Source: Clostridia bacterium
Lineage (GTDB): Bacteria > Bacillota > Clostridia > Oscillospirales > CAG-272
Reading direction: 5' to 3'
Assembly (NCBI GenBank): GCA_017456545.1
Contig: JAFTJE010000014.1
Coordinates: forward strand, 1 to 60,377
Length of the DNA: 60,377 bases
Both the position numbers and the translations under genes were made by a program. Below are positions 2,325 through 24,246 of this stretch, piece by piece. The notes under the pieces are model-generated. The model did no database searches and was not told where the DNA came from. It was given only the letters and a program-made list of their open reading frames with translations. Numbering within the stretch: the first letter of the stretch is position 1; each line of letters opens with the position of its first letter.

Positions 2325-2520
2325 GAAGACTGCCCGGGGCGGCTTATGTAACATGGGAAAATTGAGAAATTACGCACTGTACGAACCTCTCACGTGCGTA
2401 ATTTGAAATAGTGTTACCTCGGAAAGTCCTTGTTTTACAAGTGTTTATCAGTTCCGGTGAACGAAAAATACATGGGTACTTTTTAAAGCTGATTTTTGCT
2501 CGAAAAATACCCATGTTTTT
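2325..2520. repeat. Compound intergenic repeat, copy A
   Basis: Core GAAGACTGCCCGGGGC (2325-2340). Then a hairpin with 11-bp stem AAATTACGCAC / GTGCGTAATTT (2367-2377, 2394-2404) and a 16-base loop, then an AT-rich hairpin with ACATGGGTA / TACCCATGT arms (2470-2516) and a T6 run. This fills most of the gap between the recombinase region and the pRiA4b-like gene. Confidence 0.75.
2470..2520. terminator. AT-rich terminator-like hairpin, copy A
   Basis: Arms CATGGGTACTTTTT and AAAAATACCCATG with an inner AGC/GCT stem, followed by T6 on the plus strand. On the minus strand the stem is followed by ATTTTTCG, so it could stop transcription from either side. It lies just past the stop codon of the leftward gene at 2529. 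Confidence 0.55.
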
Positions 2521-2528
2521 TGATTGCT

Positions 2529-3650
2529 TTAGTCGTATTGGACGGGGATGCAACGACGGTGTTGCTGTCTGATTCTGCGATTGATCGCATCAAAATCAAG
2601 GGGATGCCACCATGCGCTCCTCACCCATTCCGAAATCCATTCGTGGTCGGGATGGTCGGGATCGTTCAGAATTTTCATCTTCTCGTCAAACCCATACGGT
2701 CCGCCGCTATCCTCCATCGGCGCGTCGCCAATCGCCTCGGTGCAGTGTGGGTACGGGGTGGTGCAGTTGGAAATAAAACGCTTTAGCTTTATCGTATGTA
2801 TCCAACCGTCCCCGAAATCGTATTCATAGTCGATCTTCTTTTGCGCTTCGAAAATTTCACGAACGATAACCGTCGTGCTGTCAATGCTTTCAAGACTTTC
2901 GTCAAGCGCAAGCCAATCTTCATTTTTCATAAATTCGGGCTGTATAATTTTCATCGGTCTGCCCATACCGTCCTTTTTCAAAACGAACTGATGCAGATGA
3001 CAGTCGTGCCATTCAAAAGCGTCTTGTAAAATTCTATGAAGTTGATAGAAATTGAGATCACTCGGAACGACCAGCGTTCTCTTGCAGGGAGTAAGCAGGT
3101 CGAGCGTGACTTCAAGCTCTGCTACGTGAGCAGACTGCACGGGTGCGCCGTATCTCTCGGAAAGCGCCGTAATCAGATTCTCGTGGATAAACGAATAGTC
3201 ATCCTTGGCAATCATATCGTTGTTGATCCACGGAAGATATTTCTCTTGAAGCATCACGTCAGACTCAAACAGATTTACAAAACGCTCCACGCGCTCGCAC
3301 GCCTTATTGCAATACGCCACGTCAGAGCGTGATGCGGTTGTCGTTAGAATTAAATCGTCACCGCAATCGTCAAGATATTTTTCTATAATTTCGGGAGCAA
3401 TATACTCACTTTGCAATACCGCGCGAATACCGTCCTTCATCAGCTCGGGCAATTTTGAAGTGCTCTTTGCCGTCAAGCCGTGAAGCACGAAGCAACACTT
3501 GGTTGCATTGCTTACGGCAAACAATGTCTTGCGGCGATTCAGTATGATAAGATTCGCCGTCCAAGAAAACAGCGGATCGGTTTCGGCAGTTAATTTCTGC
3601 GGCTTTACTCCAAAAAAGTCAAGCAGTTTTTTCGTACATCCTATAACCAT
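2529..3650 (-). CDS. Plasmid pRiA4b ORF-3 family protein
   Basis: A 373-residue protein. Its C-terminal part (about 180-370) carries the signatures of the plasmid pRiA4b ORF-3 domain: YQLHRILQDAFEW, an acidic YEYDFGDGW segment, and a late GGPYGF with PDHPDHEW. Members occur on plasmids, transposons and defence islands. Their biochemical role is not settled. The frame is open further upstream, but the start at 3650 is chosen because AAGGAG lies 6 bases before it and the upstream extension shows no family similarity. It stands alone between two copies of the intergenic repeat. Confidence 0.8.
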   Translation of the reverse strand: MVIGCTKKLLDFFGVKPQKLTAETDPLFSWTANLIILNRRKTLFAVSNATKCCFVLHGLTAKSTSKLPELMKDGIRAVLQSEYIAPEIIEKYLDDCGDDLILTTTASRSDVAYCNKACERVERFVNLFESDVMLQEKYLPWINNDMIAKDDYSFIHENLITALSERYGAPVQSAHVAELEVTLDLLTPCKRTLVVPSDLNFYQLHRILQDAFEWHDCHLHQFVLKKDGMGRPMKIIQPEFMKNEDWLALDESLESIDSTTVIVREIFEAQKKIDYEYDFGDGWIHTIKLKRFISNCTTPYPHCTEAIGDAPMEDSGGPYGFDEKMKILNDPDHPDHEWISEWVRSAWWHPLDFDAINRRIRQQHRRCIPVQYD

Positions 3651-3801
3651 CTTTTTCTCCTTCCTCATACATATCAATATAAATATTATATCACATTTTC
3701 GGAAAATATCAATAGAAATAACAGAATGAGTATGGGCATATTTCTTACAAGCAATTTCGCTCCATAACGATTCGGAAAGCAGCAAAAATCGTGTGAATTG
3801 T

Positions 3802-3984
3802 GAAGACTGCCCGGGGAATTTGCGAAAATAGAGAATGTGCGAAATTGCGCCATATAGACCGCTCTCTTTGGCGTAACTTTTGAGAAATAACTGCTTGTAT
3901 GCCTTGAAAAAACAATACTTTTCTACGAAAATTTTTATGTAATTAGAGCACCCGATTTTAAGGCGGTTTTTACATAAAAAATTT
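3802..3984. repeat. Compound intergenic repeat, copy B
   Basis: Core GAAGACTGCCCGGGG (3802-3816). Hairpin arms AAATTGCGCCA (3842-3852) and TGGCGTAACTT (3869-3879) pair with one mismatch and one G-U, around a 16-base loop. The final hairpin differs from copies A, C and D: TTTTTATGTAA / TTTACATAAAAA (about 3928-3984), as in the copy near 21,800. Confidence 0.75.
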
Positions 3985-4136
3985 CTTCCTTTTTGAACGT
4001 GCAAAGGGGGATTGTTGCGCGATTGAGACATGGCGTGATTTTTGAATGGATATGATACGTTTCGCGACGGAATGCAATCCAATGCACTTGAATAGCAATG
4101 ACCGTTCAAAACGAATGATACAACGTGAAAATTCAA

Positions 4137-4280
4137 AAACCGCGCCATGTAGACTGCTCTCTCTGGCGCGGTTTGTGATCGTATATGGGTTAAAAGCCCT
4201 TATATCGCCTGTCTTTATTGCGAATAAAATGTGGGTATTTTTCAAAGCCGATTTTCACTCAAAAAATACCCATGTTTTTT
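4137..4280. repeat. Compound intergenic repeat, copy C (no core seen)
   Basis: Perfect 11-bp stem AAACCGCGCCA / TGGCGCGGTTT (4137-4147, 4164-4174) with the 16-base loop TGTAGACTGCTCTCTC, followed by the GGGTATTTTT / AAAAAATACCC hairpin and T6 (4233-4280). I see no GACTGCC core upstream, so this is a partial or diverged unit. Confidence 0.7.
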
Positions 4281-4400
4281 CCGAGTTTAGAGGGCGATAA
4301 TCCGAACAAAGCAATTGGAAAATCGGTATGGAACGACGATCATCATAGCAATTTCGCTTCATAACTCATTCCAAGAATAGTGCAAAGTCGGGAGAATTGT

Positions 4401-4596
4401 GAAGACTGCCCGGGGCGGAGAGAAAAGAGGCAATCATTGCGAATTTGCGTTATGATGAAGCCTCTCTCTAACGCAAATTGAAGAAACGAGGGCAGAAAAA
4501 AGCAAGGCGGCGTAAGGGATTGTGGTGATTTTTGCCCTTCAAAATTATGGGTACTTTTTGAAGCTGTTTTTTGCTCAAAAAATACCCATGTTTTTT
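4401..4596. repeat. Compound intergenic repeat, copy D
   Basis: Core GAAGACTGCCCGGGGC (4401-4416). Perfect 11-bp stem AATTTGCGTTA / TAACGCAAATT (4442-4452, 4469-4479) with a 16-base loop. Then the ATGGGTACTTTTT / AAAAAATACCCAT hairpin with T6 (4547-4596), ending 10 bases before the -35 of the next operon. Confidence 0.75.
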
Positions 4597-4606
4597 AGTA
4601 CGGATA

Positions 4607-4635: not shown

Positions 4636-4674
4636 ATAAATAATAAAACTTGTTATACAAAGCGGAGGCATAAA

Positions 4675-5538
4675 ATGCAAAAGCTAATCAAGGGTATAAG
4701 AGAATATTTGGGGCTGAGCCAAGCCGACTTCGCCGAGAAGCTGGGCGTGACCTTTGCAACCGTTAACCGTTGGGAAAACGGTCGCGCTATCCCCACCAAA
4801 TTGGCACAGGCAACTCTTTATGAATACTGTAAGGCGCAGGGCGTTCCCGTCTATCAGATGATCCTCGATAAGATAAAAACGGCCACCGAGGAAATCGCGC
4901 TTGAGGAAGGCCGTGTCCTGCTCTACCACGGCTCAAAGTCGGGTATCGTTGGTGACATCGCCCCCAAGAGCCGCGAGATGTGCGATTTCGGTAAGGGCTT
5001 TTATATGGGCACCGAGCCCGGACAACCGCTAACTCTCATCTGCGATTTTGAAAAATCTAAGTTCTACATCGTGTCGATCGATACGCGCGAGCTTGATGCC
5101 ATTGAGATCAAAGCCGACCTCGATTGGGCTATGCTCGTGGCAATTCACCGTGGCAGAATGGAGCAGATCAAGGGTACGGAGTTCTACGGCAAATACAGTC
5201 AGCTTGATGCCGGCAAGGATCTCGTGATCGGAAGCATTGCAAACGACAGAATGTTTTACGTGCTGGATAACTTCTTCACGGGCGGCATCACTGATATGGC
5301 TCTCGTCAATAGTCTTTCCGCCCTTAAACTCGGAAAACAGTACGTAGCGACCACCGAAAAGGCGTGTGCAGCCGTTCGCATTGAGAAGGAGCTTCCCATC
5401 TCAATGATGGAGCGCAGATTCCTTCAGGACGAGAGCGAAGCCAACAGGCAAAAAGGCATTCACCTTGCAAACGATATTTGCAAGAACTACCGCCGCGAAG
5501 GAAAGTTCTTTGACGAGATACTTGACGAAGCGAAATGA
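4675..5538 (+). CDS. XRE-family HTH fused to DUF3990 (ADP-ribosyltransferase-like)
   Basis: A 287-residue fusion. Residues about 3-65 form an XRE-type helix-turn-helix (LGLSQADFAEKLGVTFATVN, then RWENGRA). Residues about 82-240 match DUF3990, with LLYHGS and DFGKGFYMGT, which resemble the H and Y motifs of ADP-ribosyltransferase folds. DUF3990 proteins are usually small and part of toxin-antitoxin-like pairs. The fused DNA-binding domain suggests the product also controls its own promoter. ATG 4675 is chosen because GCGGAGG lies 7 bases upstream. It leads an operon with a small protein and a Fic protein. The toxin role is inference. Confidence 0.8.
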   Translation: MQKLIKGIREYLGLSQADFAEKLGVTFATVNRWENGRAIPTKLAQATLYEYCKAQGVPVYQMILDKIKTATEEIALEEGRVLLYHGSKSGIVGDIAPKSREMCDFGKGFYMGTEPGQPLTLICDFEKSKFYIVSIDTRELDAIEIKADLDWAMLVAIHRGRMEQIKGTEFYGKYSQLDAGKDLVIGSIANDRMFYVLDNFFTGGITDMALVNSLSALKLGKQYVATTEKACAAVRIEKELPISMMERRFLQDESEANRQKGIHLANDICKNYRREGKFFDEILDEAK

Positions 5539-5551
5539 TTAGGAGGACACA

Positions 5552-5968
5552 ATGAACGAACTCCAACTGAAAATGTGTGATATACAAGGTAGACTTTTCG
5601 AGCTGTCAGGCGCGAACGGTTACGACAGCGTAACCTTCATCAAGGCGTTTATGACGAGCGAGGTCGCCAAAGGACTTGATTCCAAGTTCAATCGTATGCA
5701 GTGGGCAGGCGAAGAATATCTCCTCGCGGAGATCGCTGACACCGCCGAGCTCACCAAGGGCGGCACTGTATACGATAAAGAGGTCCTCTATTGGGCAGGC
5801 TACCTCTACCGCTTCTGGCACTTCGCCACAGGTGAGGATAGCAAAGAAATCTACCGCCAAGCCCCTGCCGAAACCATGAGCCGCAATTGGCTTATCTTCC
5901 ATACCCTCGCCCCCGAAGTGGCAATCGAGGATCTGAAAGAGATTTATCGGCAGAAAAACGAAAAGTAA
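5552..5968 (+). CDS. Hypothetical protein between DUF3990 and Fic genes
   Basis: A 138-residue soluble protein starting 13 bases after the DUF3990 gene, with AGGAGG before its ATG. I cannot name its family. The segment YDSVTFIKAFMTSEVAKGLD and a Tyr/Trp-rich middle (YWAGYLYRFWHF) are its most distinctive parts. Position directly after a candidate toxin and before a Fic gene makes it a candidate antitoxin or partner, by context only. Confidence 0.65.
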   Translation: MNELQLKMCDIQGRLFELSGANGYDSVTFIKAFMTSEVAKGLDSKFNRMQWAGEEYLLAEIADTAELTKGGTVYDKEVLYWAGYLYRFWHFATGEDSKEIYRQAPAETMSRNWLIFHTLAPEVAIEDLKEIYRQKNEK

Positions 5969-5981
5969 CATGGAGGCAAAT

Positions 5982-7064
5982 ATGTCAGAGAAAAATTGGC
6001 AATTTGAACTTGAAGAATATATAAGACAAGGTGAGCCAGGAAAAATCGAGAAAAGCGAGGCGTGGCAGACTGCCATCGGACTGCAAGCGGTTGACGGTCT
6101 GAAAACCTCGGAATATCTTTTGGATACCGCCAAAGAGCATATCGAGGGTAACATCAGCATCGACGAGGCGCAAAAGCGCATTCAATGCTACTACGAGCAG
6201 CGTACCGAGCGCACCGAAATCGAGGACGCGACCAAGGAAGCCGATATTGTTTCCGCAAGAATTGCAAAGCTCCTCGGTGAAAAGAGCTTTCAGTTCTCGC
6301 CTGCGGAGTGGATGACCATTCACCGCAGATTGTTTGAGGGAGTTTTCAAGCACGCAGGTCAAGTGAGAACCTACAACATCATCAAGAAGGAATGGGTGCT
6401 GAACGGCGATACCGTGATCTACGCGGATTTCAATAGCATCCGTGACACTTTGGACTACGATTTTGCAACCGAAAAGCAGTTCTCATATGAGGGATTGTCC
6501 GTGGAAGCTGCCGTCAAACACCTCGCAAAATTCGCATCTGACATCTGGCAGATCCATCCATTCTGCGAAGGCAACACGAGAGCGACCGCCGTCTTTATGA
6601 TCAAATATATGAAAACCTTCGGATTTCGCGTCAATAACGATGCCTTCCAAAAGAATTCGTGGTATTTCCGCAACGCGCTCGTCAGAGCGAACTATAACAA
6701 TTTGCAAAAAGGCGTTCACTCTACAACGAAATTTTTGGAAATGTTCTTCGGCAATCTTCTCTTGGAAACCAATCACGAGTTGAAAAACCGATATATGCAC
6801 GTGGATTACGTGGCCGAAAACGATTCCCAAAGTGCCAAACCTGAAATTCCAAAGTGCCAATTTGGCACTTTAGACTGCACTTTAGAAGAACTGGCACTTT
6901 TAGAGTTAATTGCAAAGAATTCATCCATTACGCAACAGGAACTTGCAGACATATCAGGAAAATCACTCAGAACTGTAAAAAGACTGATGAAATCCCTGCA
7001 AGAAAAGAACTATATCCGCCGCGAAAGCGGAAAACGCTACGGCAAATGGGAAGTTTTGGTGTGA
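5982..7064 (+). CDS. Fic family protein with C-terminal winged helix
   Basis: A 360-residue Fic protein that would transfer AMP or another nucleotide-phosphate group to a target protein. The motif HPFCEGNTR (about residue 188) fits HPFx(D/E)GNxR fully. An N-terminal helix with AKEHIEGN resembles the inhibitory VbhA/YhfG-type segment, but Ser/Thr is not at the usual position four residues before the Glu, so autoinhibition is uncertain. The C-terminal about 65 residues (QQELADISGKSLRTVKRLM) look like a winged helix. ATG 5982 is preferred because GGAGG lies 5 bases upstream and overlaps an earlier in-frame ATG. It is the last gene of the DUF3990 operon. Confidence 0.88.
   Translation: MSEKNWQFELEEYIRQGEPGKIEKSEAWQTAIGLQAVDGLKTSEYLLDTAKEHIEGNISIDEAQKRIQCYYEQRTERTEIEDATKEADIVSARIAKLLGEKSFQFSPAEWMTIHRRLFEGVFKHAGQVRTYNIIKKEWVLNGDTVIYADFNSIRDTLDYDFATEKQFSYEGLSVEAAVKHLAKFASDIWQIHPFCEGNTRATAVFMIKYMKTFGFRVNNDAFQKNSWYFRNALVRANYNNLQKGVHSTTKFLEMFFGNLLLETNHELKNRYMHVDYVAENDSQSAKPEIPKCQFGTLDCTLEELALLELIAKNSSITQQELADISGKSLRTVKRLMKSLQEKNYIRRESGKRYGKWEVLV
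6851..6871. repeat. Palindrome inside the Fic gene linker
   Basis: AAAGTGCCAA / TTGGCACTTT with one central base, in the segment coding for the linker between the Fic and winged-helix domains. Half-sites AAAGTGCC (about 6831) and GGCACTTTT (about 6893) lie on either side. It closely resembles the inverted repeat at 24392-24416. Confidence 0.6.
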
Positions 7065-7453: not shown

Positions 7454-9169
7454 ATGTGGTGTAAGAATTGCAGAAAAGAAACTGATTTAAAGAAATGTGA
7501 TGCATGTGGAAAAACAACTATCGCTGATGTTCCCTATGAAGCTTACTGGTGCGATGATTGTAATATTCCGCTTATTATCAAGGCTACAGAAGGCGAGCGA
7601 ACAGTATGCCCTCTGTGTGGTAAAAAGGTTCGTTATTTAACCACAGATTTGCGACCTGTATTTCCCGAAGAGCGCCTCTTATTGGAATTGTTGTTTGACA
7701 ATCCCTTGAAATATATCAATTCTTCTGTATGGGCATCGGATAACAGATATTACATAGATGGCAAATCGAAGGCTGTGTCCAATACCGTTTTCGCAAATGC
7801 AGATATTCAAAAGTTAATCAAAGGATTAGAAGAATATAAAGATCAAAACTCGTATGCTGTTTTTGATTTTTATGTCGAGAAATTTGTTGAGGCTAATATT
7901 GATAGACTAAGATATATAAAAAGCGAAGCGTTTGATTTCATAAGAAATACCGCACATGATTATCCATCAGAGCACGTGGTCATCTCTTTCTCCGGTGGTA
8001 AAGATTCTACCGCTGTAGCTGATTTGGTGGTCAGAGCATTAGAAAATCCCAGTTTAGTGCATATCTTTGGCAACACAACGCTGGAATTTCCCCTAACCAT
8101 CGAATATGCTCAACGCTTCAGAAAAAATAATCCAAGAGTTATATTAAAAATTGCAAAAAACAAAGAACAGGACTTTTATAGTGTTTGCGAAGATATTGGC
8201 CCCCCTGCGCGTATGATGCGTTGGTGTTGCTCAATGTTTAAGACCGGACCTATAACCCGAATATTGAACAATCTTTATAAGGATGCTCAAATTCTTACCT
8301 TCTACGGAATTAGAAAATATGAGTCTGTCAGCAGAAGCAAGTATGAACGAGTTTCAAGCAATAATGAGTCTGTCAAAATCCAAAAGCAAACCGTAGCAGC
8401 CCCGATATTCGATTGGAGAGATATTGATGTATGGTTGTATTTGCTTGGGGAAAAGGTAGATTTCAATGACGCATATCGTTTGGGATATGATCGAGTTGGA
8501 TGTTGGTGTTGCCCTAACAACAATGAGCGAGCTCAATTCTTATCAAAAATATATATGCCGGAAGAATATAAGAAATGGCATGATTTTCTCGTGGATTTTG
8601 CCAAACGAATTGGGAAGCCAGACCCAGAGGTGTATGTTGACACCGGAAAGTGGAAGGCTCGTCAAGGCGGAAACGGAGTTAAAGCGGCAGATGACATTAA
8701 GATTAAATTTACCAACTGCACTGCTGAAGAAAACGCAAAGATTTATCAACTCAACAAACCTATCACAGATAGTTTTTATTCGCTTTTTGCTCCGTTTGGA
8801 AAGGTGTCCAGAGAATTGGGTAGAAAGTTAATTGGCGAGGTAATCGTTCTTGATACGAAGCATAATGTTCCAATCATATCTATTCAACCATTCAAACAGC
8901 CGGGATATGATTACTCTGTGAAAATCAAAACGATGAACGTTGCAAATCATGATGATTTACAGCGTATGGCAGGCTATCAAATCAGAAAATATAATGCCTG
9001 CCGCAAGTGCCTAAAGTGCGAGTCTTTGTGCAAAGCTGGGGCTATAATGATATATGGTGACACGTATCGTATTGATGAAACTAAATGCAAACGATGCAAA
9101 ATGTGTGTTACAGCAAAATATTTAGACGGTGGATGCAAGATGACAAACTATCTTGCAACCAAAGAATAA
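7454..9169 (+). CDS. sspD: SspD-like PAPS reductase-family phosphorothioation enzyme
   Basis: A 571-residue enzyme of the DndC/SspD type. These proteins use an ATP pyrophosphatase (PP-loop) fold to activate the DNA backbone and insert sulfur. Two zinc ribbons come first (CKNC, CDAC; CDDC, CPLC; residues 3-56). The PP-loop SGGKDST is at 180-186, with RWCC (about 257) and CWCCPN (about 354) typical of PAPS-reductase relatives. The C-terminus (516-561) has CxxCxxCxxxC and CxxCxxC clusters that would hold iron-sulfur centres. GGAGG precedes the ATG. The next genes, DUF4007, ATPase and cysteine desulfurase, complete an Ssp set. The symbol is given by family and context. Confidence 0.85.
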   Translation: MWCKNCRKETDLKKCDACGKTTIADVPYEAYWCDDCNIPLIIKATEGERTVCPLCGKKVRYLTTDLRPVFPEERLLLELLFDNPLKYINSSVWASDNRYYIDGKSKAVSNTVFANADIQKLIKGLEEYKDQNSYAVFDFYVEKFVEANIDRLRYIKSEAFDFIRNTAHDYPSEHVVISFSGGKDSTAVADLVVRALENPSLVHIFGNTTLEFPLTIEYAQRFRKNNPRVILKIAKNKEQDFYSVCEDIGPPARMMRWCCSMFKTGPITRILNNLYKDAQILTFYGIRKYESVSRSKYERVSSNNESVKIQKQTVAAPIFDWRDIDVWLYLLGEKVDFNDAYRLGYDRVGCWCCPNNNERAQFLSKIYMPEEYKKWHDFLVDFAKRIGKPDPEVYVDTGKWKARQGGNGVKAADDIKIKFTNCTAEENAKIYQLNKPITDSFYSLFAPFGKVSRELGRKLIGEVIVLDTKHNVPIISIQPFKQPGYDYSVKIKTMNVANHDDLQRMAGYQIRKYNACRKCLKCESLCKAGAIMIYGDTYRIDETKCKRCKMCVTAKYLDGGCKMTNYLATKE

Positions 9170-9182
9170 GGGAGCCAACTTT

Positions 9183-10058
9183 ATGAAATTCAGAGCACAT
9201 GATACATTTGCGATAAGAAAAGGATGGTTACACAAAGGCATACGCCATGTGGAAAAAAATTCTCGTATTTTCGTAGATAAAGAAAAGAATCCGATGGATG
9301 AGTTTGGCATAGGTGCCAATATGGTGAAAGCATTGCGTTATTGGCTTCAGGCTACTGGATTGACCGAAGAAAATACTGGAAATAATCGCAATCAATATCT
9401 CACTCCGTTTGGTGAACAAGTCAGGGAAAACGATCCCTATATGGAAGAGGACGGAACTCTTTTCTTGATACATTATTTTTTGGCATCAAATGAAAATTTG
9501 GCTACGGCGTGGTACTATTTTTTCAATCATTACAAAGTGGTTGATATAACCGAGGAAAACTTTATCGCGGGAATCAAGTCATATCTTCTAAGCATCTTGA
9601 AAGAAGGCGAATCTTTACCTTCGGATAGAGCTCTAACCGATGATTTCGATTGCATAGTAAAGACGTATATTCCTAATATTTCGTCTTCGCCTGAAAGCAA
9701 TATGGGATGTCCCTTGAGTGATCTTTCTCTTTTGGCAACTACGGAAAAATCAAAATATGTTAAAGTCAACACAAAATCATCAGCTATCAATCCGTTGATA
9801 ATTTTGGCGGTGATTATTAATGAAAGCTCTAAAAATGAGAGCAAAGAGATCAAAATCTCGAAATTGGAAAATGATCCTTGCAATATAGGCAAAATTTTTA
9901 ATTTGGATGCGCTAACAATTGCAACTTATCTTGATAAGCTGCAAAATATGGAGTATATCACTGTTAATAGAACCGCAGGCTTAGATATTATTACATTAAG
10001 AACGGATATGGATTTTATCCAGTGCGTTCAAGAGTATTATAGAAGCATACATGATTAA
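9183..10058 (+). CDS. sspB: SspB-like DUF4007 protein
   Basis: A 291-residue protein starting KFRAHDTFAIRKGWLHKG, the usual beginning of DUF4007. In the characterised SspABCD system the DUF4007 protein SspB is a DNA nickase that opens a strand for sulfur insertion. Start ATG 9183 has AAGGGA 9 bases upstream, and an earlier in-frame start would overlap the previous gene. It lies 13 bases after the sspD-like gene and 17 bases before the ATPase gene. No classical nuclease motif is obvious by eye, so the activity is inferred from family. Confidence 0.82.
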   Translation: MKFRAHDTFAIRKGWLHKGIRHVEKNSRIFVDKEKNPMDEFGIGANMVKALRYWLQATGLTEENTGNNRNQYLTPFGEQVRENDPYMEEDGTLFLIHYFLASNENLATAWYYFFNHYKVVDITEENFIAGIKSYLLSILKEGESLPSDRALTDDFDCIVKTYIPNISSSPESNMGCPLSDLSLLATTEKSKYVKVNTKSSAINPLIILAVIINESSKNESKEIKISKLENDPCNIGKIFNLDALTIATYLDKLQNMEYITVNRTAGLDIITLRTDMDFIQCVQEYYRSIHD

Positions 10059-10075
10059 ACGAAAGGAATTGAAAC

Positions 10076-13711: not shown

Positions 13712-13720
13712 GGAGACCTT

Positions 13721-14872
13721 ATGCATTATTTTGATAATGCCGCAACCACTTTCCCAAAGCCTGATGCGGTATATGACAATATGGATTCGTTTTATCGGAC
13801 ATATGGCGTAAATGTAGGCCGCGGTCAATTCCGCGAGGCTTCGGTGGCAAGTCACATGGTCGACGAAACCCGAGAACTGATTTTAGAATTGTTTCATGTG
13901 TCGAACTTGTATTCGTGTGTATTCACTTCTTCTGCAACGGAAGCCTTGAACATTATTCTTCAAGGCTTCCCTTGGAAGCACGGAATGAATGTGTATATTT
14001 CGCCGTTTGAGCACAATGCTGTTTTGCGAACATTACAACACATTCAAGACAAATATAGCATCACGGTACGAATGATACTTCCAGATTGTAAGACATTGAA
14101 ATACGATCTGTCTTCTGTTCAGGCTACATTTGCATCTCAAAAACCGGATGTTGTGATTCTCACCCATGCTTCAAACGCCTTTGGAAACATTCTACCAATT
14201 ACAGATATATTTACATTAGCTAAAGATGCCGGAGCTATCACTATTTGCGATATGGCACAAACCGCAGGCTTGATTGATACGAATATCGTAGAATCAAAAA
14301 TTGATTTTGCAGTGTTTGCCGGACACAAAACACTTTATGGACCGTTCGGAATAGCGGGATTTGTAACAAATCAAAAATTAAAGCTTGCTCCGCTTATCTT
14401 CGGTGGTACTGGAATTGATTCTAAAAATCCTTATATGCCGGAAGAAATGCCTACCAAATATGAGGCAGGAAGCCCTAACGTGCATGCAATATCTGGATTG
14501 AATGCTGCGCTAAAATGGATAAAAGAAACCGGAATAAACAATATACGTCAGAAAGAACGTGAGACTACGAAGAAACTGTTGGATGTTTTACGTTCTCATG
14601 GTAATATTCGAGTCATTGAATGCGAATCAGAAGATGACAGAATCGGTGTAGTTTCCTGTGTGTTTGAAGGTTATAGTAGTGATAATATTGGTCAAGTTTT
14701 GTCTGAATATGATATTGCAGTCAGAACCGGACTGCATTGTGCGCCTAAAGCTCATGAATTTATGAAAACCGCACCGGACGGAACGGTTAGATTTAGTGTG
14801 GGATATTTTGTATCTGACGAAGCATTGATTGAATTAAATAAAGTACTCGATTATATTGAAATGGAGGGCTAA
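13721..14872 (+). CDS. sspA: SspA/DndA-like cysteine desulfurase
   Basis: A 383-residue class V aminotransferase of the NifS/IscS group, which removes sulfur from cysteine with PLP and passes it on as a persulfide. The N-terminus YFDNAATTFPKP, the PLP-binding lysine in GHKTLYGP (about 203), and the active cysteine in RTGLHCAPKAHEF (about 339) are all present. It would be the sulfur donor for the SspD-like enzyme. It starts 9 bases after the ATPase gene with AAGGAG, and its stop lies just before the helicase start. Confidence 0.88.
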   Translation: MHYFDNAATTFPKPDAVYDNMDSFYRTYGVNVGRGQFREASVASHMVDETRELILELFHVSNLYSCVFTSSATEALNIILQGFPWKHGMNVYISPFEHNAVLRTLQHIQDKYSITVRMILPDCKTLKYDLSSVQATFASQKPDVVILTHASNAFGNILPITDIFTLAKDAGAITICDMAQTAGLIDTNIVESKIDFAVFAGHKTLYGPFGIAGFVTNQKLKLAPLIFGGTGIDSKNPYMPEEMPTKYEAGSPNVHAISGLNAALKWIKETGINNIRQKERETTKKLLDVLRSHGNIRVIECESEDDRIGVVSCVFEGYSSDNIGQVLSEYDIAVRTGLHCAPKAHEFMKTAPDGTVRFSVGYFVSDEALIELNKVLDYIEMEG

Positions 14873-14873
14873 T

Positions 14874-16556: not shown

Positions 16557-16560
16557 AAAG

Positions 16561-18372
16561 ATGAACACCACAGATACAATATTCGATCAAGTAAACGGAG
16601 AAGAATTATATCAAATCGAAACAATGGCTGACGGTGCCAGAAACACCGGATATAAATCGACCTACAATGCAATTGCAGAAATCGTTGATAACAGCATAGA
16701 GTCTGGTGCACACAATGTATTTATTATCGGCAAGCAAGATTTGGTTTTAAATCAGCAGTGCATACGTGAATTTGCTTTTTTAGATGATGGTACTGGAATG
16801 ACAGACGAAGTATTAGCCAAGTGTTTGAAGATTGGTTTTACAACACGCGCCCAGCGACAGGGAATGGGGCGTTTCGGTGTTGGATTGCCTCAAGCCTCTT
16901 ACTTTGTGTCCCCACGTGTGGAAGTTTATACTTGGCAAAACGGAATTGAGAATTGCAAATGTGTATATGTAGATTTGGATTTAGTATCGGCTGGAGATCA
17001 AACGAGGATCGTAGGCCCATTTCCTTCCGAAATTCCAGAGGAATATCAAGGTTTTATAAACTTTATTACTGCAGATAACAATTTCGATTTTAGTCAACAT
17101 GGAACATTGGTTAGATGGCCAAAATGTGATAGAGTTGATCACAAAAAGTGGAATACTTGCAAAAGAAACATTTCAGAAGATTTAGGTCGAAAATATCGCT
17201 GGATGATCAATGACGGCACTATCAATATCGCAACTGTTGAAATTAATGATTTAGAAACCTTCGATGTGATTTTACCGAATGATCCGCTATTTTTGATGCA
17301 GAAAACACAATTTTGCGTAAGAAACACTTGCGGTGATCAAGATCCGTCTTGTCAAAAATATGATGAGGTTCTTGGTTATACCGAATCAATGTTTGAACCT
17401 TACGTTACCGAGGATAACCAAACGGGAATTGTCGACTATCCTGTATACTTTTTTGATAAGCACGGCGAGAAAAAGTGGTCAACCGTAAGAATCAGATTTT
17501 CTATTGTGAAAGAACGCTTTTATGATAAAGCTTATGTCGCAGCAGACCCCGGAACCCATCAGTATGGTAAATGCGCCAAAAAGAATATGGGTATTTCTAT
17601 TGTAAGGCAAGGACGCGAAATCGATTTCGGGGATTTCGGGTATTACGATGATGCTGTTAAGCCCAACCACAGATGGTGGGGTTGTGAGATTTCTTTTACT
17701 GCCGAGTTGGATGAGGCATTTGGAATTGCCAACAATAAGCAACAAGTAACTCTTAAACGAATCGATGATGACGATTTGCCTGATTTTGATGGAAACGAAC
17801 CAATGTGGCTTCAGTTAAGAAGTATTGTTTCTGGAACAATAAACAAAATGTTCCAAATTAATAAAGATAGGCGTAGCGGAACAAGATCGTCTTCTAACGG
17901 AATTACAGCAACTACGGCAACCTCCGAAACAGTAAAGGCTGCAGAAGCAGAAAATCCAGACATATCGGTTCCCAATATAGAGCAACCTGAACTCACTCCT
18001 GAAATTAAAGACAAAATTGAACAGGAACTCAAAGAAGAAGGTTTTACTGAAGTCACAGAAGAACAAATTGTACAGTATCTTGATTCCAATACTCGAGTAA
18101 AATATGTTAATTACGGCCCCAGGAGCGCATTCTTGGATTTTCAAGATGATTTAGGCGTATTAAAAATCATTGTTAATAAAGACCATCAGTTTTATCAAGA
18201 ATTTGTACAAGAAGCTTACCAAGATGAAAATATGCAAGTAACATTCGAGTTGTTTTTGGTGTCTTTAGTCAAGACAGTATATCAACTTAAGAATACCTAT
18301 CCGGCTGCTATGGATAGACTGATAGATGATATAAATACCAAACTTAAAGTCTACATAAAAACCAGAAATTAA
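16561..18372 (+). CDS. GHKL (HSP90/MutL/MORC-like) ATPase of the ssp operon
   Basis: A 603-residue protein with an N-terminal GHKL ATP-binding fold: AIAEIVDNSIE (N box, about 40), DDGTGM (about 75) and GRFGVGLP (about 104). These are the Bergerat motifs of HSP90, MutL and MORC proteins, which dimerise on ATP and often clamp DNA. A low-complexity acidic linker lies at about 445-500, before an all-alpha C-terminus. ATG 16561 follows GGAGG with 7 bases between, and the gene starts 4 bases after the helicase stop. A role in sensing or acting on unmodified DNA is inferred. Confidence 0.8.
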   Translation: MNTTDTIFDQVNGEELYQIETMADGARNTGYKSTYNAIAEIVDNSIESGAHNVFIIGKQDLVLNQQCIREFAFLDDGTGMTDEVLAKCLKIGFTTRAQRQGMGRFGVGLPQASYFVSPRVEVYTWQNGIENCKCVYVDLDLVSAGDQTRIVGPFPSEIPEEYQGFINFITADNNFDFSQHGTLVRWPKCDRVDHKKWNTCKRNISEDLGRKYRWMINDGTINIATVEINDLETFDVILPNDPLFLMQKTQFCVRNTCGDQDPSCQKYDEVLGYTESMFEPYVTEDNQTGIVDYPVYFFDKHGEKKWSTVRIRFSIVKERFYDKAYVAADPGTHQYGKCAKKNMGISIVRQGREIDFGDFGYYDDAVKPNHRWWGCEISFTAELDEAFGIANNKQQVTLKRIDDDDLPDFDGNEPMWLQLRSIVSGTINKMFQINKDRRSGTRSSSNGITATTATSETVKAAEAENPDISVPNIEQPELTPEIKDKIEQELKEEGFTEVTEEQIVQYLDSNTRVKYVNYGPRSAFLDFQDDLGVLKIIVNKDHQFYQEFVQEAYQDENMQVTFELFLVSLVKTVYQLKNTYPAAMDRLIDDINTKLKVYIKTRN

Positions 18373-18389
18373 AACATTGAGAGGTTTCC

Positions 18390-19322
18390 ATGAGTTTACT
18401 GAATACATATGAAGTACAACAAAAAATAGCACAAGAAGTGGCGAGCGCTACAACACATCTGCAAATTGTTTCTGCATTTTGTAAAGTTGATGCGATTGAA
18501 TTTATTGATAGTCATATCAACACCTCTTTGCAAACAAAGAAACTCATGGTTAGATTCCTTCTATCCGACATAATAAACGGAGCGAGTGATTTTAACTTAT
18601 ATGAGTATTGTAAATCACATGGTTGGCAGATGTATGTTCGGTTTGATTTGCATGCCAAGACATACATCTTTGATCGAAAAAGATGTATTCTTGGCAGTGC
18701 TAATCTTACTAATCGCGGATTAGGGCTCAACTTGCACGGTAATTATGAATTATCCAGTTTTGCAGATGTTGATGATAATGATTTGCAAAAAATTGATACT
18801 TTGTTTGATAACGCCATTTTGATGACAGATTCGTTGTATGAAGCAATGAAATCAGAGTATGAAAAATGGCAGGAAACGAGATCATCTGTTGCTGTTCCGA
18901 AATGGAGTTCGATAATTGAGGGACATTTTAATCCTAAAATCGATTTGCTATTCACCTATGACTTTCCGACAACGATAACTCCTGATTTTAACGATATAAC
19001 ATCATTTGAGTTTTTGGGTATAAATTATATTCCCCCAATTGATGATGTTAGGCGGGCTTTTAGATGGAGCAAGGCATTTTTATGGCTTTACAATTACGTA
19101 AGTTCTTGTCCGGATCAAACAAGTTATTTTGGAGGAGTGACAGCAGCGCTACATAATGCTTTAATAAATGATCCTAAGCCATATAGAAAAGAAGTAAAGG
19201 ATCTTTTGGCCAATATGCTTAGTTGGATAGTCACATTAGATATAATTGATATTATTGTTGATGTGCCCAACCATTCCCATAGGATTCGAATAAATAATAA
19301 GGAGATGTGTTTGACAAAATGA
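18390..19322 (+). CDS. PLD-like nuclease/phosphodiesterase of the ssp operon
   Basis: A 310-residue protein whose N-terminal half carries one HKD-type site, DLHAKTYIFDRKRCILGSAN (about residues 86-105: H-x-K, later D, then GSxN). One HKD motif per chain implies a dimer, as in PLD-family nucleases such as BfiI or Nuc. The C-terminal half (about 190-310) is unrecognised. GAGAGG precedes the ATG. It overlaps the DUF262 gene by four bases (ATGA), so the two are probably translated in a coupled way. It is the best nuclease candidate among the restriction genes of this operon. Confidence 0.8.
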   Translation: MSLLNTYEVQQKIAQEVASATTHLQIVSAFCKVDAIEFIDSHINTSLQTKKLMVRFLLSDIINGASDFNLYEYCKSHGWQMYVRFDLHAKTYIFDRKRCILGSANLTNRGLGLNLHGNYELSSFADVDDNDLQKIDTLFDNAILMTDSLYEAMKSEYEKWQETRSSVAVPKWSSIIEGHFNPKIDLLFTYDFPTTITPDFNDITSFEFLGINYIPPIDDVRRAFRWSKAFLWLYNYVSSCPDQTSYFGGVTAALHNALINDPKPYRKEVKDLLANMLSWIVTLDIIDIIVDVPNHSHRIRINNKEMCLTK

Positions 19323-20341
19323 GTTGGAATTCATATAAACATCCTATATCGGATATTAGAGATTGGAATAGAAATAATAGGTTAGAATTAAAACCGGATT
19401 TTCAAAGAAACGAAGTGTGGACCAAAGCTGCGCAAATCATGCTGATTGATACAATTATCAGAAAAATACCAATACCTAAAATATATATCAAATCAATAAT
19501 ACACGAAGGTAATACATACCGTGTTGTTCTTGACGGTCAGCAAAGATTAACTGCAATATTAAAATTCGTTGAAGATAAACTTAAATTGGGAAAGCCTTAT
19601 GAAGGTGAATATTTTGGAAAAAAATTTAGTGAGCTTCCTATAGAAGTGCAAAACGACATCCTAAGATATACCATTGATATAAACGAAATATTTAATCCGA
19701 CCGACGAACAAATCCGAGATTTATATGCAAGAGTTAATAAGTATACCGTTCAGTTAAACAAACAGGAACTTCGCAAGGCTGACTTCCCTGGAGACTTTAT
19801 AGAGTTAGCAGAGGAACTCTCCGAAATGGAGTTTTTTGAAAAATCAAAGATCTTTAGCATCAAACAACGCCGACGTATGCTTGATGTAGAATATATTGAA
19901 GAACTTTTAAGTGTTATGCTTGAAGGTATTCACGAAAAGAAAGAACACCTTGATAGCGTTTGCGAAAAATATATGACCATGTCAAACAGAGATGAAATAT
20001 ATGCAGAATTTGTGAATGTTATCGGTGATATTTCGACAATTTTTGACGCAGAATCTTATCCGATTTCTCAAACCAGATTCAAACAAAAATCAGATTTTTA
20101 TTCTTTGTTTGCATGTATTTTTGAACTTCGAAAAGTGGGTACTATTAACCATTCTTACATAGTTAACATTCGGGATAACATAACACTTATGACAGAAAAT
20201 GTTGGACCTCAAAGCGAAATTGAAAAATATCGCGAATATGCAATGCGTTGTTTGAGTGATGCAAATTCTGTTTCAAGTAGGAAATGGCGAGTTCAGTTCC
20301 TGAATGAAATTCTTGAGCCTGCATATACAAATGAGGAATAA
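19319..20341 (+). CDS. DUF262 protein without the DUF1524 nuclease half
   Basis: A 340-residue protein with a DUF262 (GmrSD N-terminal, ParB/Srx-like) domain at about 10-170, shown by PDFQRNEVWT, PIPKIYI and LDGQQRLTAIL. The C-terminal half has no HxxP or N..R signature of the HNH nuclease DUF1524 seen in SspE and GmrSD. DUF262 couples NTP hydrolysis to sensing of modified DNA, so this may be a sensor or regulator. ATG 19319 overlaps the preceding stop. AAGGAG is 14 bases away, and an alternative GTG at 19307 would sit too close to it. Confidence 0.8.
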   Translation: MSWNSYKHPISDIRDWNRNNRLELKPDFQRNEVWTKAAQIMLIDTIIRKIPIPKIYIKSIIHEGNTYRVVLDGQQRLTAILKFVEDKLKLGKPYEGEYFGKKFSELPIEVQNDILRYTIDINEIFNPTDEQIRDLYARVNKYTVQLNKQELRKADFPGDFIELAEELSEMEFFEKSKIFSIKQRRRMLDVEYIEELLSVMLEGIHEKKEHLDSVCEKYMTMSNRDEIYAEFVNVIGDISTIFDAESYPISQTRFKQKSDFYSLFACIFELRKVGTINHSYIVNIRDNITLMTENVGPQSEIEKYREYAMRCLSDANSVSSRKWRVQFLNEILEPAYTNEE

Positions 20342-20344
20342 TAA

Positions 20345-21208
20345 ATGGACATTGCTTTGAACGATTTCTCCAGAGTGTATAGTGCTCCTGATGAAATATT
20401 AGGTAATTCAGGAAAAAGTTATGAGCTGGGTGATAGAATTGGTGGCGGAGGCAACGGTGCTGTCTATGAATGTATTGATATCAACGGAAACATATTAGCA
20501 GTTAAATTCCTTTTGCATTTTTCAGATAAAATCAAAAAACGTTTTTTGCAAGAAGTTACAGTTTTAAAGGCAGTTAATCATCCCCATATCATTAAATACT
20601 ACGATGATGGAAAAGTTATAGCATATGATAAAAAAAGAAATCCTCACGAGCTATATTTTGTGATTATGGAGAAAGCCGATTGCAATTTGGTAGAATATTT
20701 GAGAAAAGAAATTTCTGTTGAATACGATGTATACTCAGGTCAATTTAGAGGGCTGTGTGAAGCTTTAGCGGAATTACATAAGTATGCCATTCATAGAGAC
20801 ATAAAGCCTGAAAACATCCTTGTAAAGGGTGAAAAATGGGTATTGAGTGACTTTGGATTATGCCAAGCGGTTTTGCCTGAAAACAGAATAGATGTAACTG
20901 AAGAAAACGAAAAAGTGGGGCCTGCCTTTTGGATGAGTCCCGAAGCGATAACTAAATACTACTTAGGAACTTCCGAAATAAACGCTTCGTCAGACGTTTT
21001 TCAATTATGTATGGTATTTATATTTGTGTTAACCCGAGAATTTCCTGGAGGAATAATCCAAGAAGCCGATATTGAAAATACTACGCAGCCAATTAAAGAA
21101 TTGCTTTTATCAGCCGTTTCTCATAAATCCACGAACCGCCCGAATGATGGTGCTGTACTACTACAATTGTATAACAATGCTACATATTATCAGTCACAAA
21201 ACCTTTAG
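20345..21208 (+). CDS. Hanks-type serine/threonine protein kinase
   Basis: A 287-residue single-domain kinase. The Gly-rich loop GGGGNGAVY (about 33-41), ATP lysine in LAVKF (about 53), catalytic loop HRDIKPENIL (about 154-163), DFG (about 174) and SPE in place of APE (about 199) are all present, so it should be active. There is no membrane segment or PASTA domain. It starts 3 bases after the DUF262 stop and closes the ssp operon. Kinases occur in other defence systems (PglW, Stk2), but I know of no standard Ssp set that contains one. Targets are unknown. Confidence 0.88.
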   Translation: MDIALNDFSRVYSAPDEILGNSGKSYELGDRIGGGGNGAVYECIDINGNILAVKFLLHFSDKIKKRFLQEVTVLKAVNHPHIIKYYDDGKVIAYDKKRNPHELYFVIMEKADCNLVEYLRKEISVEYDVYSGQFRGLCEALAELHKYAIHRDIKPENILVKGEKWVLSDFGLCQAVLPENRIDVTEENEKVGPAFWMSPEAITKYYLGTSEINASSDVFQLCMVFIFVLTREFPGGIIQEADIENTTQPIKELLLSAVSHKSTNRPNDGAVLLQLYNNATYYQSQNL

Positions 21209-21340: not shown

Positions 21341-21393
21341 TTCATTTATATCGGTTTGTCCGAGCAATAGATTTTCCGTTTTAGAAGAATCGC

Positions 21394-21430
21394 AGAGGAC
21401 TGCCGGGGGCGAGAGAAATGAAGCAAGTTA
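21394..21430. repeat. Intergenic repeat core, copy E
   Basis: GAGGACTGCCGGGGGC (21394-21409) followed by a purine-rich stretch like that of copy D. No variable-stem hairpin is evident after it. Confidence 0.5.
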
Positions 21431-21644
21431 ACACAATCAAGAATTGTAGGAATGGTCGGAGCAATAAAGATTGAAGTTAATATGGAGAAGCGGGTTTTGT
21501 ATTGGATATGGCAGAAATATTGAGATTTCCTTTGCATTGAAAATGTAAAGAAAATTGAAATGTATGCAAGTATGAGAATTGCCATGATGTGCGCGATTTT
21601 GCACCAGACTCATTTTAGAAATGTGCAGAATTTGACGGAATTGC

Positions 21645-21842
21645 GGGGACTGCCCGGGGCGTGAATCGCACTCACAAAAGAACGTTGTCTGGGGCAAAAT
21701 TACGTCAACTTGTTTGCAACCTTTGACGTAAAATCATAATTTCTCATTTCTAAAAAGGCTTATAATAGCTGAATTTTTCGCTCAAAAATCTTATGTAATT
21801 AGCATATAAAAAATTTCGGTTCATTTTTACATAAAAAATTCA
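21645..21842. repeat. Compound intergenic repeat, copy F
   Basis: Core GGGGACTGCCCGGGGC (21645-21660). Stem TTACGTCA / TGACGTAA (21700-21707, 21724-21731) with a 16-base loop. Final hairpin with TTATGTAATT / TTTTTACATAAAAAATT arms (about 21786-21842), like copy B. CCAGACTCATTTTA precedes the core. Confidence 0.7.
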
Positions 21843-21891
21843 CGGTTTTTACGTCATATTATAGTTGTATCATTGCGAAAAATTGCATCAA

Positions 21892-21995
21892 GAAGACTGC
21901 CGAGGCGATCACGCTCGGTAATGCGTTTATACCAGACTCATTCTACCGTTAAAACTGAGATCTATATTGTTGCAATTTCAAAATGAGTTTGGGGC
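21892..21995. repeat. Intergenic repeat, copy G
   Basis: Core GAAGACTGCCGAGGC (21892-21906). Arms CCAGACTCATT (21932-21942) and AATGAGTTTGG (21982-21992) pair with one G-U. It is closely similar over about 95 bases to copy H at 24145, including TTGAGATCTATATT-like and TTGCAATTTCAAAATGAGT segments. Confidence 0.7.
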
Positions 21996-22131: not shown

Positions 22132-22153
22132 AATGGTGTAGGAGGTAATGAAT

Positions 22154-23290
22154 ATGCTTACACAAATTAAACTTTCAGGCTTCAGATCCTTCAAAGAAGA
22201 AACTATTTTTGATATCTGCGCCACGAATTATAAAATGCTTCAGGACGTTAACGTAACGGACGGAATCCTAAAGGGATTGCTTTTTATCGGCGGAAACGCA
22301 TCCGGTAAAACCAATTCTATTCGCGCTATTACATTTTTGCTTGAGATGCTTTTCAAAGAAACTTCGATTGACGTTCCCGTTAATCCTTGTCTCTTTTCCA
22401 AGGATAATATGAAATTAGAGTATCACTTTAGCTTTGACGAGAACAAAATCGTGTACTCTTTTGAAACCAACAAAAACGGAATCGTGCTTAAAGAAAAGCT
22501 GATGTTAAACGGCGATTGCGTTATGGAGCGCATTGGTAAAAGCGCAAATACAACTCTGTCGGAAACCAAAAATTATAACGATATTGACGAGGCAACGCTT
22601 TTCCTAAGAACGATTCATTTCAATACAAAATTCGCATCTTCTCCTATTTTGGCAAGATGGATGAAGTATCTTAGCAACTCGGTTTTGTTTAATGCTGCCG
22701 AAAGAAGTGTTATCACATTTGAAGCGAGCAACAAGCTGATGTTGTCTAAATACGTTGAATCCAATGGTGTTGATGCAATAAATGATTTCTTTAATTACTT
22801 TGGATTTAATCAGGAAGTGGCTTATGAAACCACGCACCGCCTGAGTGAGTTTGCCGTTGCCGAATCCAAGTCGGATAAGAACGTTTACTTGAAGCGCAAC
22901 AATTTGGATTATTGGATGCCTTTGGCGTTGGAATCGCTTGGCAATCAAACACTTCTGAATATGTTGCCTGCTTTGTTGCACGTTGTTAACACCGAATGCA
23001 TGTTTATCATTGATGAATTCAGCAGTGCTTTTCATAATGAGTTAGAGGAATTAATCGTTCGCTACTTTATGGAAAAATCGAAGAGGTCACAGATCTTCTT
23101 TGTATCTCACTCAACCAATTTGTTGAAGTCTACGTTGTTAAGACCCGATCAGATTTATACGGTTGATTTTAGTCAGGCTTGTGGCAGTACCATCAAAAAA
23201 GCATCCTCCGAGCATCCCAGAGAATCGCAGAACTTTGAAAAGATGTATTTGAGCGGAGTGTTTGGTGGTCTTCCTAATTACAGAGGTTGA
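22154..23290 (+). CDS. AAA15/AAA21-type ATPase, AbiL/RloA/PARIS-like
   Basis: A 378-residue ABC-like ATPase of the AAA15 group. It begins LTQIKLSGFRSFKEE, has Walker A GGNASGKTNS (about 43-52), Walker B MFIIDEFSSAF (about 281-291) and an SHST switch-like motif. Paired with the TOPRIM-like gene 5 bases downstream, it matches two-gene abortive-infection modules such as AbiL, RloAB and PARIS, where the ATPase senses a phage trigger and controls the partner. ATG 22154 is preferred to 22148 because GGAGG ends only 2 bases before the latter. Confidence 0.82.
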   Translation: MLTQIKLSGFRSFKEETIFDICATNYKMLQDVNVTDGILKGLLFIGGNASGKTNSIRAITFLLEMLFKETSIDVPVNPCLFSKDNMKLEYHFSFDENKIVYSFETNKNGIVLKEKLMLNGDCVMERIGKSANTTLSETKNYNDIDEATLFLRTIHFNTKFASSPILARWMKYLSNSVLFNAAERSVITFEASNKLMLSKYVESNGVDAINDFFNYFGFNQEVAYETTHRLSEFAVAESKSDKNVYLKRNNLDYWMPLALESLGNQTLLNMLPALLHVVNTECMFIIDEFSSAFHNELEELIVRYFMEKSKRSQIFFVSHSTNLLKSTLLRPDQIYTVDFSQACGSTIKKASSEHPRESQNFEKMYLSGVFGGLPNYRG

Positions 23291-23295
23291 TTGCC

Positions 23296-24072
23296 ATGAA
23301 ACTGAGCTTAAACCCCACAAAATCCATTGGTAAGGTTGTATTTATCGTTGAAGGTCAGAGACGGGAATTTACTTTTCTTGAATATCTGCTTACGAAGGTT
23401 TTTGATTACACTGTTGTAGAATACCGAAGAGGGAAAGAACCAATCGTATATTATCAAAGCCCGTCCGACATTCATTCGCAAATCTTTATTGTAAATACCG
23501 AAAACTCAAATATTTCGAGCATCAAAAGAGGAACGGATTACCTGAATGCGGTTTTCAACGAGCTTTACGAGAAATACAAATTAGACTTACATAATGCCGC
23601 GACGTATTATATTTTTGACAGAGATCCCAAGTCCAACAACAATCCTGAGTTGATTGAAAACCTAACCACCGAGTTAACCAATGCAAGAGATAACGACACA
23701 GAGCTTGGCGGGTTGCTTTTGCTAAGTTACCCCAGTCTTGAAGCATATCTGCTCAGTGCCCTTGTTCATAAAGAGGATCGTGTTCCGTTTGAGCGTGGCG
23801 AAAAGATGAAGGAATATCTGGCAAGAAACAAACTTTACCAAGAGAACATCCAAGAGCAAAACGTACTTCAAGCGGCGGATGAGATGCTTGCGGAGTTATA
23901 TTCGCTGAGCGGCATAGAATTCAAAATCAGCATTTTAGATGATTTTGGCGAATATAATTTGTCTATATTCAAAAGCGAGGAACACGAATTCGAAACGAAT
24001 AAAGCATACTCTATTTTGAGTTGCCTTTCTTGCGCATTGATTGATTTGGGAATCATCGTAATGGATGAATGA
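23296..24072 (+). CDS. TOPRIM-like partner (RloB/AbiLii/AriB-like)
   Basis: A 258-residue protein with a TOPRIM-like start: VVFIVEGQRREFTFLEYLL carries the catalytic Glu, and YYIFDRDPKSNN (about 113) the DxD metal site. A later LLSYPSLEAYLLSAL segment is also seen in RloB-like proteins. It is the likely nuclease effector of the upstream ATPase. ATG 23296 has GAGG 9 bases upstream. An earlier TTG overlaps the previous stop. The exact system name (AbiL, RloB or PARIS) cannot be settled by eye. Confidence 0.75.
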   Translation: MKLSLNPTKSIGKVVFIVEGQRREFTFLEYLLTKVFDYTVVEYRRGKEPIVYYQSPSDIHSQIFIVNTENSNISSIKRGTDYLNAVFNELYEKYKLDLHNAATYYIFDRDPKSNNNPELIENLTTELTNARDNDTELGGLLLLSYPSLEAYLLSALVHKEDRVPFERGEKMKEYLARNKLYQENIQEQNVLQAADEMLAELYSLSGIEFKISILDDFGEYNLSIFKSEEHEFETNKAYSILSCLSCALIDLGIIVMDE

Positions 24073-24093
24073 TCAAAAGCACAAATTGAATCG

Positions 24094-24137
24094 AAGAGGT
24101 TTGAACACTTACTCTAAGCGTTTAGACCTCTTTTTGT
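24094..24137 (+). terminator. Terminator of the AAA/TOPRIM pair
   Basis: AAGAGGT (24094-24100) pairs with ACCTCTT (24126-24132). The stem continues inward with several pairs around a CTC loop, and the right arm runs into TTTTTG. Confidence 0.75.
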
Positions 24138-24144
24138 TATGCTC

Positions 24145-24246
24145 GAGGACTGCCGAGGTGGGCGCCCTTGGCAATACGTTTATACCAGACTCGTTTTACC
24201 GATAAGGTTGAGATCTATATTTGTTGCAATTTCAAAATGAGTATGG
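24145..24246. repeat. Intergenic repeat, copy H
   Basis: Core GAGGACTGCCGAGG (24145-24158), then arms CCAGACTCGTTTT (24185-24197) and AAAATGAGTATGG (24234-24246). Nearly the same as copy G over its length. Confidence 0.7.

Follow-up and report, generated by a model that had tools for sequence, protein, structure and literature searches.

Two families of structured intergenic repeats, here called A and B, recur within a ~25-kb island in the stretch of Clostridia bacterium DNA shown above (contig JAFTJE010000014.1 of assembly GCA_017456545.1, forward strand; 60,377 nucleotides (nt), hereafter the window). The island carries a serine recombinase at one end, is inserted in a Mn-catalase-family gene and holds exchangeable phage-defence cargo. 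The repeats lie between genes, all in one orientation; they are confined to the island and conserved among related islands, the family A helix covaries, a two-gene module is present or absent between direct copies of family B, and two junctions fall on repeated motifs. With somewhat less than even confidence, we favour the reading that the repeats are module-boundary elements, which insulate modules and act as joints for exchange by homology. Specifically, the elements would have two coupled roles: they would (i) shield each module from transcription that enters from its neighbours, and (ii) provide repeated motifs as joints at which gene modules may insert, get lost or fuse, the recombination probably proceeding by short homology rather than through a dedicated enzyme. 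We infer the insulating role because of the position of the elements and the terminator-like folds in four of the five A copies, and element structure may act in transcription; a recombining enzyme and any RNA role of the elements would be putative.

Two repeat families in one island

The initial annotation had described seven cores of the form GRRGACTGCCSRGG as parts of one dispersed element. All seven occur on the plus strand between genes, at 2325, 3802, 4401, 21395 (previously placed at 21394), 21645, 21892 and 24145, where base composition would give ~0.002 in the window. Those at 2325, 3802, 4401 and 21645 belong to family A; those at 21892 and 24145 define the second family, B, and that at 21395 belongs to a diverged B-like element. 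In family A, the core GAATTGYGRRGACTGCCCGGGG is accompanied by an inverted repeat, AAATTRCGNNA / TNNCGYAATTT, that encloses a 16-nt loop, and usually also by an AT-rich palindrome resembling a terminator. Family B shares the core heptamer of A and has different hairpins. The A elements, all on the plus strand, are a (2262-2525; core 2316-2339, hairpin 2366-2405, AT-rich palindrome 2465-2521), b (3736-3990; core 3793-3815, hairpin 3842-3879, AT-rich palindrome 3927-3985), the coreless h (4026-4283; hairpin 4137-4174, palindrome 4221-4283), c (4336-4596; core 4392-4414, hairpin 4442-4479, palindrome 4541-4595) and d (21585-21845; core 21636-21659, hairpin 21700-21731, and an AT palindrome that folds weakly). 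The diverged B-like element (21386-21487; core 21395-21408, a hairpin and an ATATGG end) and the left and right B copies (21893-21994 and 24146-24248) share this strand. A coding origin for the core (EDCPG, or other frames) was rejected, as we read neither a pattern of synonymous change nor a common frame in it.

The five hairpins predicted earlier with 16-nt loops are present at 2367-2404, 3842-3879 (clean part 3845-3876), 4137-4174, 4442-4479 and 21700-21731, the last scoring best in an alternative form of 9 bp with a 14-nt loop. Dinucleotide shuffles equalled the best hairpin in 2, 20, 2, 3 and 0 of 300 trials for the 2325, 3802, 4401, 21645 and 4137 copies, respectively; the 3802 hairpin on its own is therefore unremarkable. 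The loop, described earlier as constant, is 16 nt long in 20 of the 23 copies compared across seven islands; in the other three, of the 2325 type, the innermost pair is C-A and the loop 18 nt. The stems, said to be unrelated in sequence, in fact share AAATTRCG...CGYAATTT (AAACCGCG in the 4137 copy), with mainly the inner 2-3 pairs swapped (the NN positions above) and the 4137 copy altered further out as well. A terminator-like, AT-rich end hairpin was confirmed in four A copies, with shuffle z from -3.1 to -5.8, the 21645 copy failing as an RNA fold. The long upstream arm paired at a level equalled in 0, 4, 14, 2 and 0 of 300 shuffles for five copies; it thus pairs above most shuffles yet is less conserved than other parts, and its status as a regular part of the element is uncertain.

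Besides the window's island (W), seven further islands of its kind were found, six from genomes of the same family and one from IMG/VR, with those compared below labelled G338, G339, G340, G341, G342, G696 and G1142. Searching 84,980 species genomes with GAATYGYRRRGACTGCCSRGG returned 15 stretches, five of which, from four genomes, are true homologues (L018, L023, L027, L029, L031), as is the single stretch found in IMG/VR (L032). A family A covariance model (R1), built from 15 copies, recovered four held-out copies: that at 4137, two of G339 and one of G341 (E 3.7e-8, 6.8e-18, 9.0e-17 and 1.8e-5). In large samples, searched with stricter filters at which weak matches are lost, R1 matched only the bacterium's own genome among 394 from the order. 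R2, the model of family B, likewise matched only that genome among 391 of the class, six of 395 genomes of the family (its own, G696 and four taken as G338-G341 because the match coordinates are identical), and three of 35 genomes of one genus, one of them new (G1142). All R1 and R2 matches, in six genomes or records, fall inside the island. The element is therefore not dispersed, as had been proposed; every copy found in the genome sits in this one island, and the only other exact core match there (on contig C40) lies, in our reading, inside a protein-coding gene and was counted as chance. A genome-wide repeat was rejected on this ground, as was an insertion sequence or miniature inverted-repeat transposable element, whose copies would be scattered; for a single A unit, no clean empty site that could show a target-site duplication was seen. 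Three outcomes named beforehand as telling against the element were checked: a lack of covariation, a lack of copies in related genomes, and identity as an ordinary insertion sequence. None of the three occurred.

Seventeen pattern-selected stretches were set aside as chance: six in relatives (L010-L015), L016, and ten of the 15 genome stretches (L017, L019-L022, L024-L026, L028, L030). Their best A score was 21 bits, to which the selecting core pattern contributes, compared with 33-94 bits for true copies, and none had a B match. DNA searches found no match in phage collections to one stretch holding d and B, and none in plasmid collections to one stretch holding element a; an HTH-DUF3990 query found no relative in IMG/VR. 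A literature search yielded no description of the A or B repeats in the portions of the sources available, and wider absence from print is not claimed.

Conservation, covariation and possible roles in RNA or protein binding

Conservation was measured as mean pairwise identity among five islands (W, G339, G340, G341 and G696 for a, b and c; W, G338, G340, G342 and G696 for d). Element parts are well conserved: cores at 0.86-0.97, hairpin arms at 0.88-0.97, loops at 0.82-0.95 and palindromes at 0.86-0.95, compared with 0.75-0.77 for third codon positions of two genes beside a, b and c, and 0.60-0.83 for most spacers. The repeats are genuine and appear to be under selection.

The proposed compensating stem changes are significant in family A and hardly apparent in family B. 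In a 23-copy alignment of the A helix fitted to the model, and hence leaning towards it, 89.7% of cells pair and both partners change in 6 of 11 pairs, a level reached by none of 500 shuffles; the covariation score of 0.370 was also reached by none. In the unfitted alignment the count was 4 of 11 pairs, which 34 of 500 shuffles attained, and the score 0.348 (0 of 500), with the caveat that kinship alone can lift sequences above shuffles without any structure. The swaps at two inner A pairs, however, mostly separate paralogous types; within type a, a pair that is U-A in G696 is C-G in W and C-A in three others. For family B the signal is weak, at one of 24 pairs, which 114 of 500 shuffles reached.

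These changes raise the possibility, which we consider unlikely though deserving of attention, that family A is a structured RNA (a small RNA or leader) transcribed from the plus strand, with a conserved 24-nt core, a hairpin whose loop is rich in CUCUC, and its own intrinsic terminator, gene exchange being incidental. Beyond the compensatory changes themselves, one internal pair is GC, GU or AU and never A-C in the 23 copies, the core is conserved in all four types and the loop in b and c, and a T-run follows the palindrome on the plus strand. However, A-C mismatches do occur at the helix ends (7 cells, compared with 13 G-T cells), promoter scans show no plus-strand site recurring at one position ahead of the cores, conservation is low immediately before the core in a, b and c (0.71-0.80, as opposed to 0.92 in d), and d lacks a good terminator. 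As with the structured RNAs of Rfam, family A combines a covarying hairpin with a conserved loop; unlike them, it matches no family. Nothing relevant was found for the window at gathering score or for 1-25000 at E up to 5, where four weak matches (E 0.13-1.1) were taken as chance, in line with the earlier remark that no named family was known to fit.

The same inverted repeats could instead be double-stranded operator or recombinase-binding sites (half-site TTRCG, 16-bp spacing), the apparent hairpin being two half-sites. This we judge very doubtful. The half-sites do repeat in alternating orientation, and one arm at the island end finds its best match in the 60-kb window, itself excluded, in the 4401 copy; this likeness involves one arm and the 4401-type copy only, scores 28 compared with 27 for the next place, and does not rank first in the other islands, so that the island-end arms are at most a tentative source of the A hairpin. 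In addition, the inner bases co-vary between arms, which is unexpected of independent half-sites, and the loop is conserved in b and c.

Exchangeable defence cargo of the islands

The islands share a constant frame around varying cargo. On the left, W, G339, G340, G341 and G696 retain the recombinase (~97% amino acid identity), a PRiA4_ORF3-like gene, HTH-DUF3990, an unnamed gene and Fic; the right end consists of elements followed by the Mn-catalase-family gene, before which the G340 stretch stops short. Between the two, W carries an Ssp-type phosphorothioation defence system (7454-21208, plus strand) that is absent from the other islands read, and which comprises PAPS reductase/BrxP-like, SspB, SspC, SspA-like, helicase, HATPase, PLD, GmrSD/NsnA-like and kinase genes. 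The place of this system is taken by type I restriction-modification, bSEFIR, a KwaB-like protein and a PDC-S53 protein in G340, open reading frames of a size matching the type I restriction-modification/bSEFIR genes of G340 in G339, DrmA/DrmB in G341, DUF4357/HSDR_N/DUF2971 in G342, and a PDC-S14 gene among others in G696.

A smaller exchangeable module lies between the direct B copies of W (22148-24072, plus strand) and encodes an AbiLi/PDC-M12A-like AAA_21 ATPase and a weakly PDC-M12B-like partner. This AbiLi-like pair occurs between two B copies in three of eight islands (W, G342, G696) and is missing in G338, G339, G340, G341 and G1142 as far as these were read, each of which has a single B, truncated in G1142. 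The B flanks (60 nt left, 75 nt right) were compared with the four complete empty sites of G338-G341. The left flank of the first B resembles the empty sites in W, G342 and G696 (0.61-0.98), as does the right flank of the second B in W and G696 (0.75-0.97), while the inner flanks do not (0.19-0.26). In W, either B copy may be the resident type. Two further junctions fall on repeated motifs: in G339, a cargo terminator runs directly into the right half of d, the join lying at the core, and in G1142, in our reading, the left part of d is fused to the right part of B at CAGACTCATT.

A dedicated system could produce such patterns if the elements were recombination sites, attC-like and used by another enzyme, with modules moving as circles that integrate at the GACTGCC core. 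All copies share one orientation, the two-gene module is flanked by direct B copies with a single B where it is absent, and homology switches at the core: G339 at 22066 is 0.11-0.42 identical to other d elements on the left and 0.89-0.98 on the right, and W at 24148 is 0.07-0.53 identical to the single-B islands on the left and 0.76-0.82 on the right. However, the ends that belong to the island's own recombinase lie at another site and share TC, and homologues of this recombinase in IMG/VR (nine loci, 48-83% identity) have no A or B element at any locus; the occurrence of the elements is thus not simply tied to it. We downgraded strict site-specific recombination at the core because of the B-flank comparison and the G1142 junction, which lies at another motif, and now regard dedicated sites as improbable.

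In part, the elements resemble those of integrons: attC sites, too, are repeats in one orientation at module ends, with structure kept while sequence varies, and with modules present or absent between them. Integron membership was rejected, since the integrase IntI (TIGR02249) exceeded its cut-off in none of five genomes, which are incomplete metagenome-assembled genomes, and since no strict pair of the boxes R''=RYYYAAC and R'=GTTRRRY lay 45-140 bp apart in eight elements on either strand. Weaker integrase matches occurred in all five genomes, as in all 14 controls, and the only strict box pair in the whole window is palindromic. A further possible difference from attC is that junctions fall both at the core (G339) and at CAGACTCATT (G1142), though later homologous exchange could blur the crossover point. 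It would be a bold and, in our estimation, quite unlikely proposal that an integron-independent cassette system operates here, in which circular defence modules integrate into and excise from a serine-recombinase island at folded sites with a GACTGCC core, through an enzyme not yet recognised.

Exchange by homology at module-boundary elements, which remains our preferred reading, has a parallel in mosaic phage genomes, where boundary or linker sequences are conserved intergenic stretches and modules are exchanged by homology; the island repeats differ in recurring several times in one island, partly in tandem, and with conserved structure. Several observations weigh against this reading. The elements are matched in conservation by intergenic stretches outside them (1690-2180 at 0.90, 2181-2261 at 0.93, 3700-3735 at 0.89) and by spacers within them (0.87 for 4415-4436 in c; 0.92 for 21610-21635 and 21660-21685 in d), and the upstream arm is conserved only moderately (0.80-0.89). 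The 21645 copy has no convincing terminator fold (z -0.4). The right flank of G342 departs from the empty sites (0.27-0.29), and the B body of the resident type lies on the right in G696 (0.92-0.95 to G338-G340) and on the left in G342 (0.94-0.96); crossover was therefore not always at the core, as a dedicated site would lead one to expect. Several breakpoints lie off any element: none stands between the Fic gene and the left border of the cargo behind it, and deletions around 4026-4336 and in d of G341 fall elsewhere than at elements. The earlier suggestion of a structured RNA or a recombination site in folded DNA is supported in part: family A shows structure with compensatory changes, and the comparison of islands supports recombination at the elements, though with junctions at more than one point.

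The carrier island

Considered as a whole, positions 118-25417 look like a serine-recombinase intervening element inside a Mn-catalase-family gene, which we take to be cotJC-like: a recombinase lies at one end, a gene is interrupted, and the gene is intact in relatives. The large serine recombinase (Resolvase, Recombinase, Zn ribbon and DUF4368; TndX/TnpX-like) occupies the left end (130-1689, minus strand) and scores to the CcrB and XisF models, under their cut-offs. The right end is marked by the common TC (25416-25417), at which the right gene piece starts and from which it runs on to 25822; the left piece is seen in G339, G340, G341 and G696, and in W would fall outside the contig. The gene is, in our reading, unbroken in seven of eight relatives. 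In the eighth (L078, G008) it looks interrupted near the same place, where the flank near 1501 resembles the island's right end and not the intact gene, and another related insertion may be present. In a genome of the same genus (G011, C47:6076-50319), halves of the gene region lie ~44 kb apart with a ~12-bp query overlap (window 25730-25741), perhaps reflecting another insertion in the same gene. The staphylococcal cassette chromosome (SCC) is a further recombinase-carrying element with which the island can be compared. Intervening elements of spore-formers with serine recombinases include gin in gerE (PMC5595907), SPbeta in spsM (PMC4191935), skin in sigK (PMC5025042) and yin in yabG (PMC10747680); the likeness, a recombinase at one end and insertion inside a gene, concerns the carrier island and not the repeats.

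Within the frame, the PRiA4_ORF3/DUF6933 gene (2529-3650, minus strand) has homologues that begin near 3650, and its mechanical open reading frame to 4148 overruns. The HTH-DUF3990, unnamed (5552-5968) and Fic genes (4675-7064, plus strand) form the framework kept in G339, G340, G341 and G696, islands in which element h is missing wholly or partly and looks to have been lost by deletion. Between the recombinase and element a, 2055-2240 contains, by eye, a promoter-like stretch, a strong ribosome-binding site, a very short open frame and a terminator-like hairpin; it lies in a stretch conserved at 0.90-0.93 across five islands and is possibly a leader or attenuator. Towards the right end, another terminator-like hairpin (24274-24323, plus strand) has two copies flanking a FAD-dependent oxidoreductase gene in G338, G339, G340 and G1142, one copy found together with that gene in G342 and G696, and one copy without it in W and G341. 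A palindrome, TTCCAAAGTGTCAAATTGATACTTTGGAA, at 24389-24418, of which G338, G340, G342 and G1142 have a near-identical form situated between B' and d, looks like an operator. A separate Mn-catalase-family gene (24519-25181) lies just within the right end, and a GCGAAAAATCCTTATTTTACAAGG-like repeat (25346-25372) occurs close to one island end, or to both, in W, G339, G340, G341, G342 and G696, with a diverged copy at 2420-2446 in element a, between hairpin and palindrome.

These islands bear on how defence genes reshuffle within islands. A single type, found in one IMG/VR record and in seven genomes that all belong to one bacterial family, swaps Ssp, restriction-modification, DISARM-like and AbiLi-like modules within a preserved frame, with conserved structured repeats at some of the joints. 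The A and B covariance models provide two search tools for further islands, and with the frame kept and repeats at some joints, the exchange can be traced by sequence and is testable in long reads.

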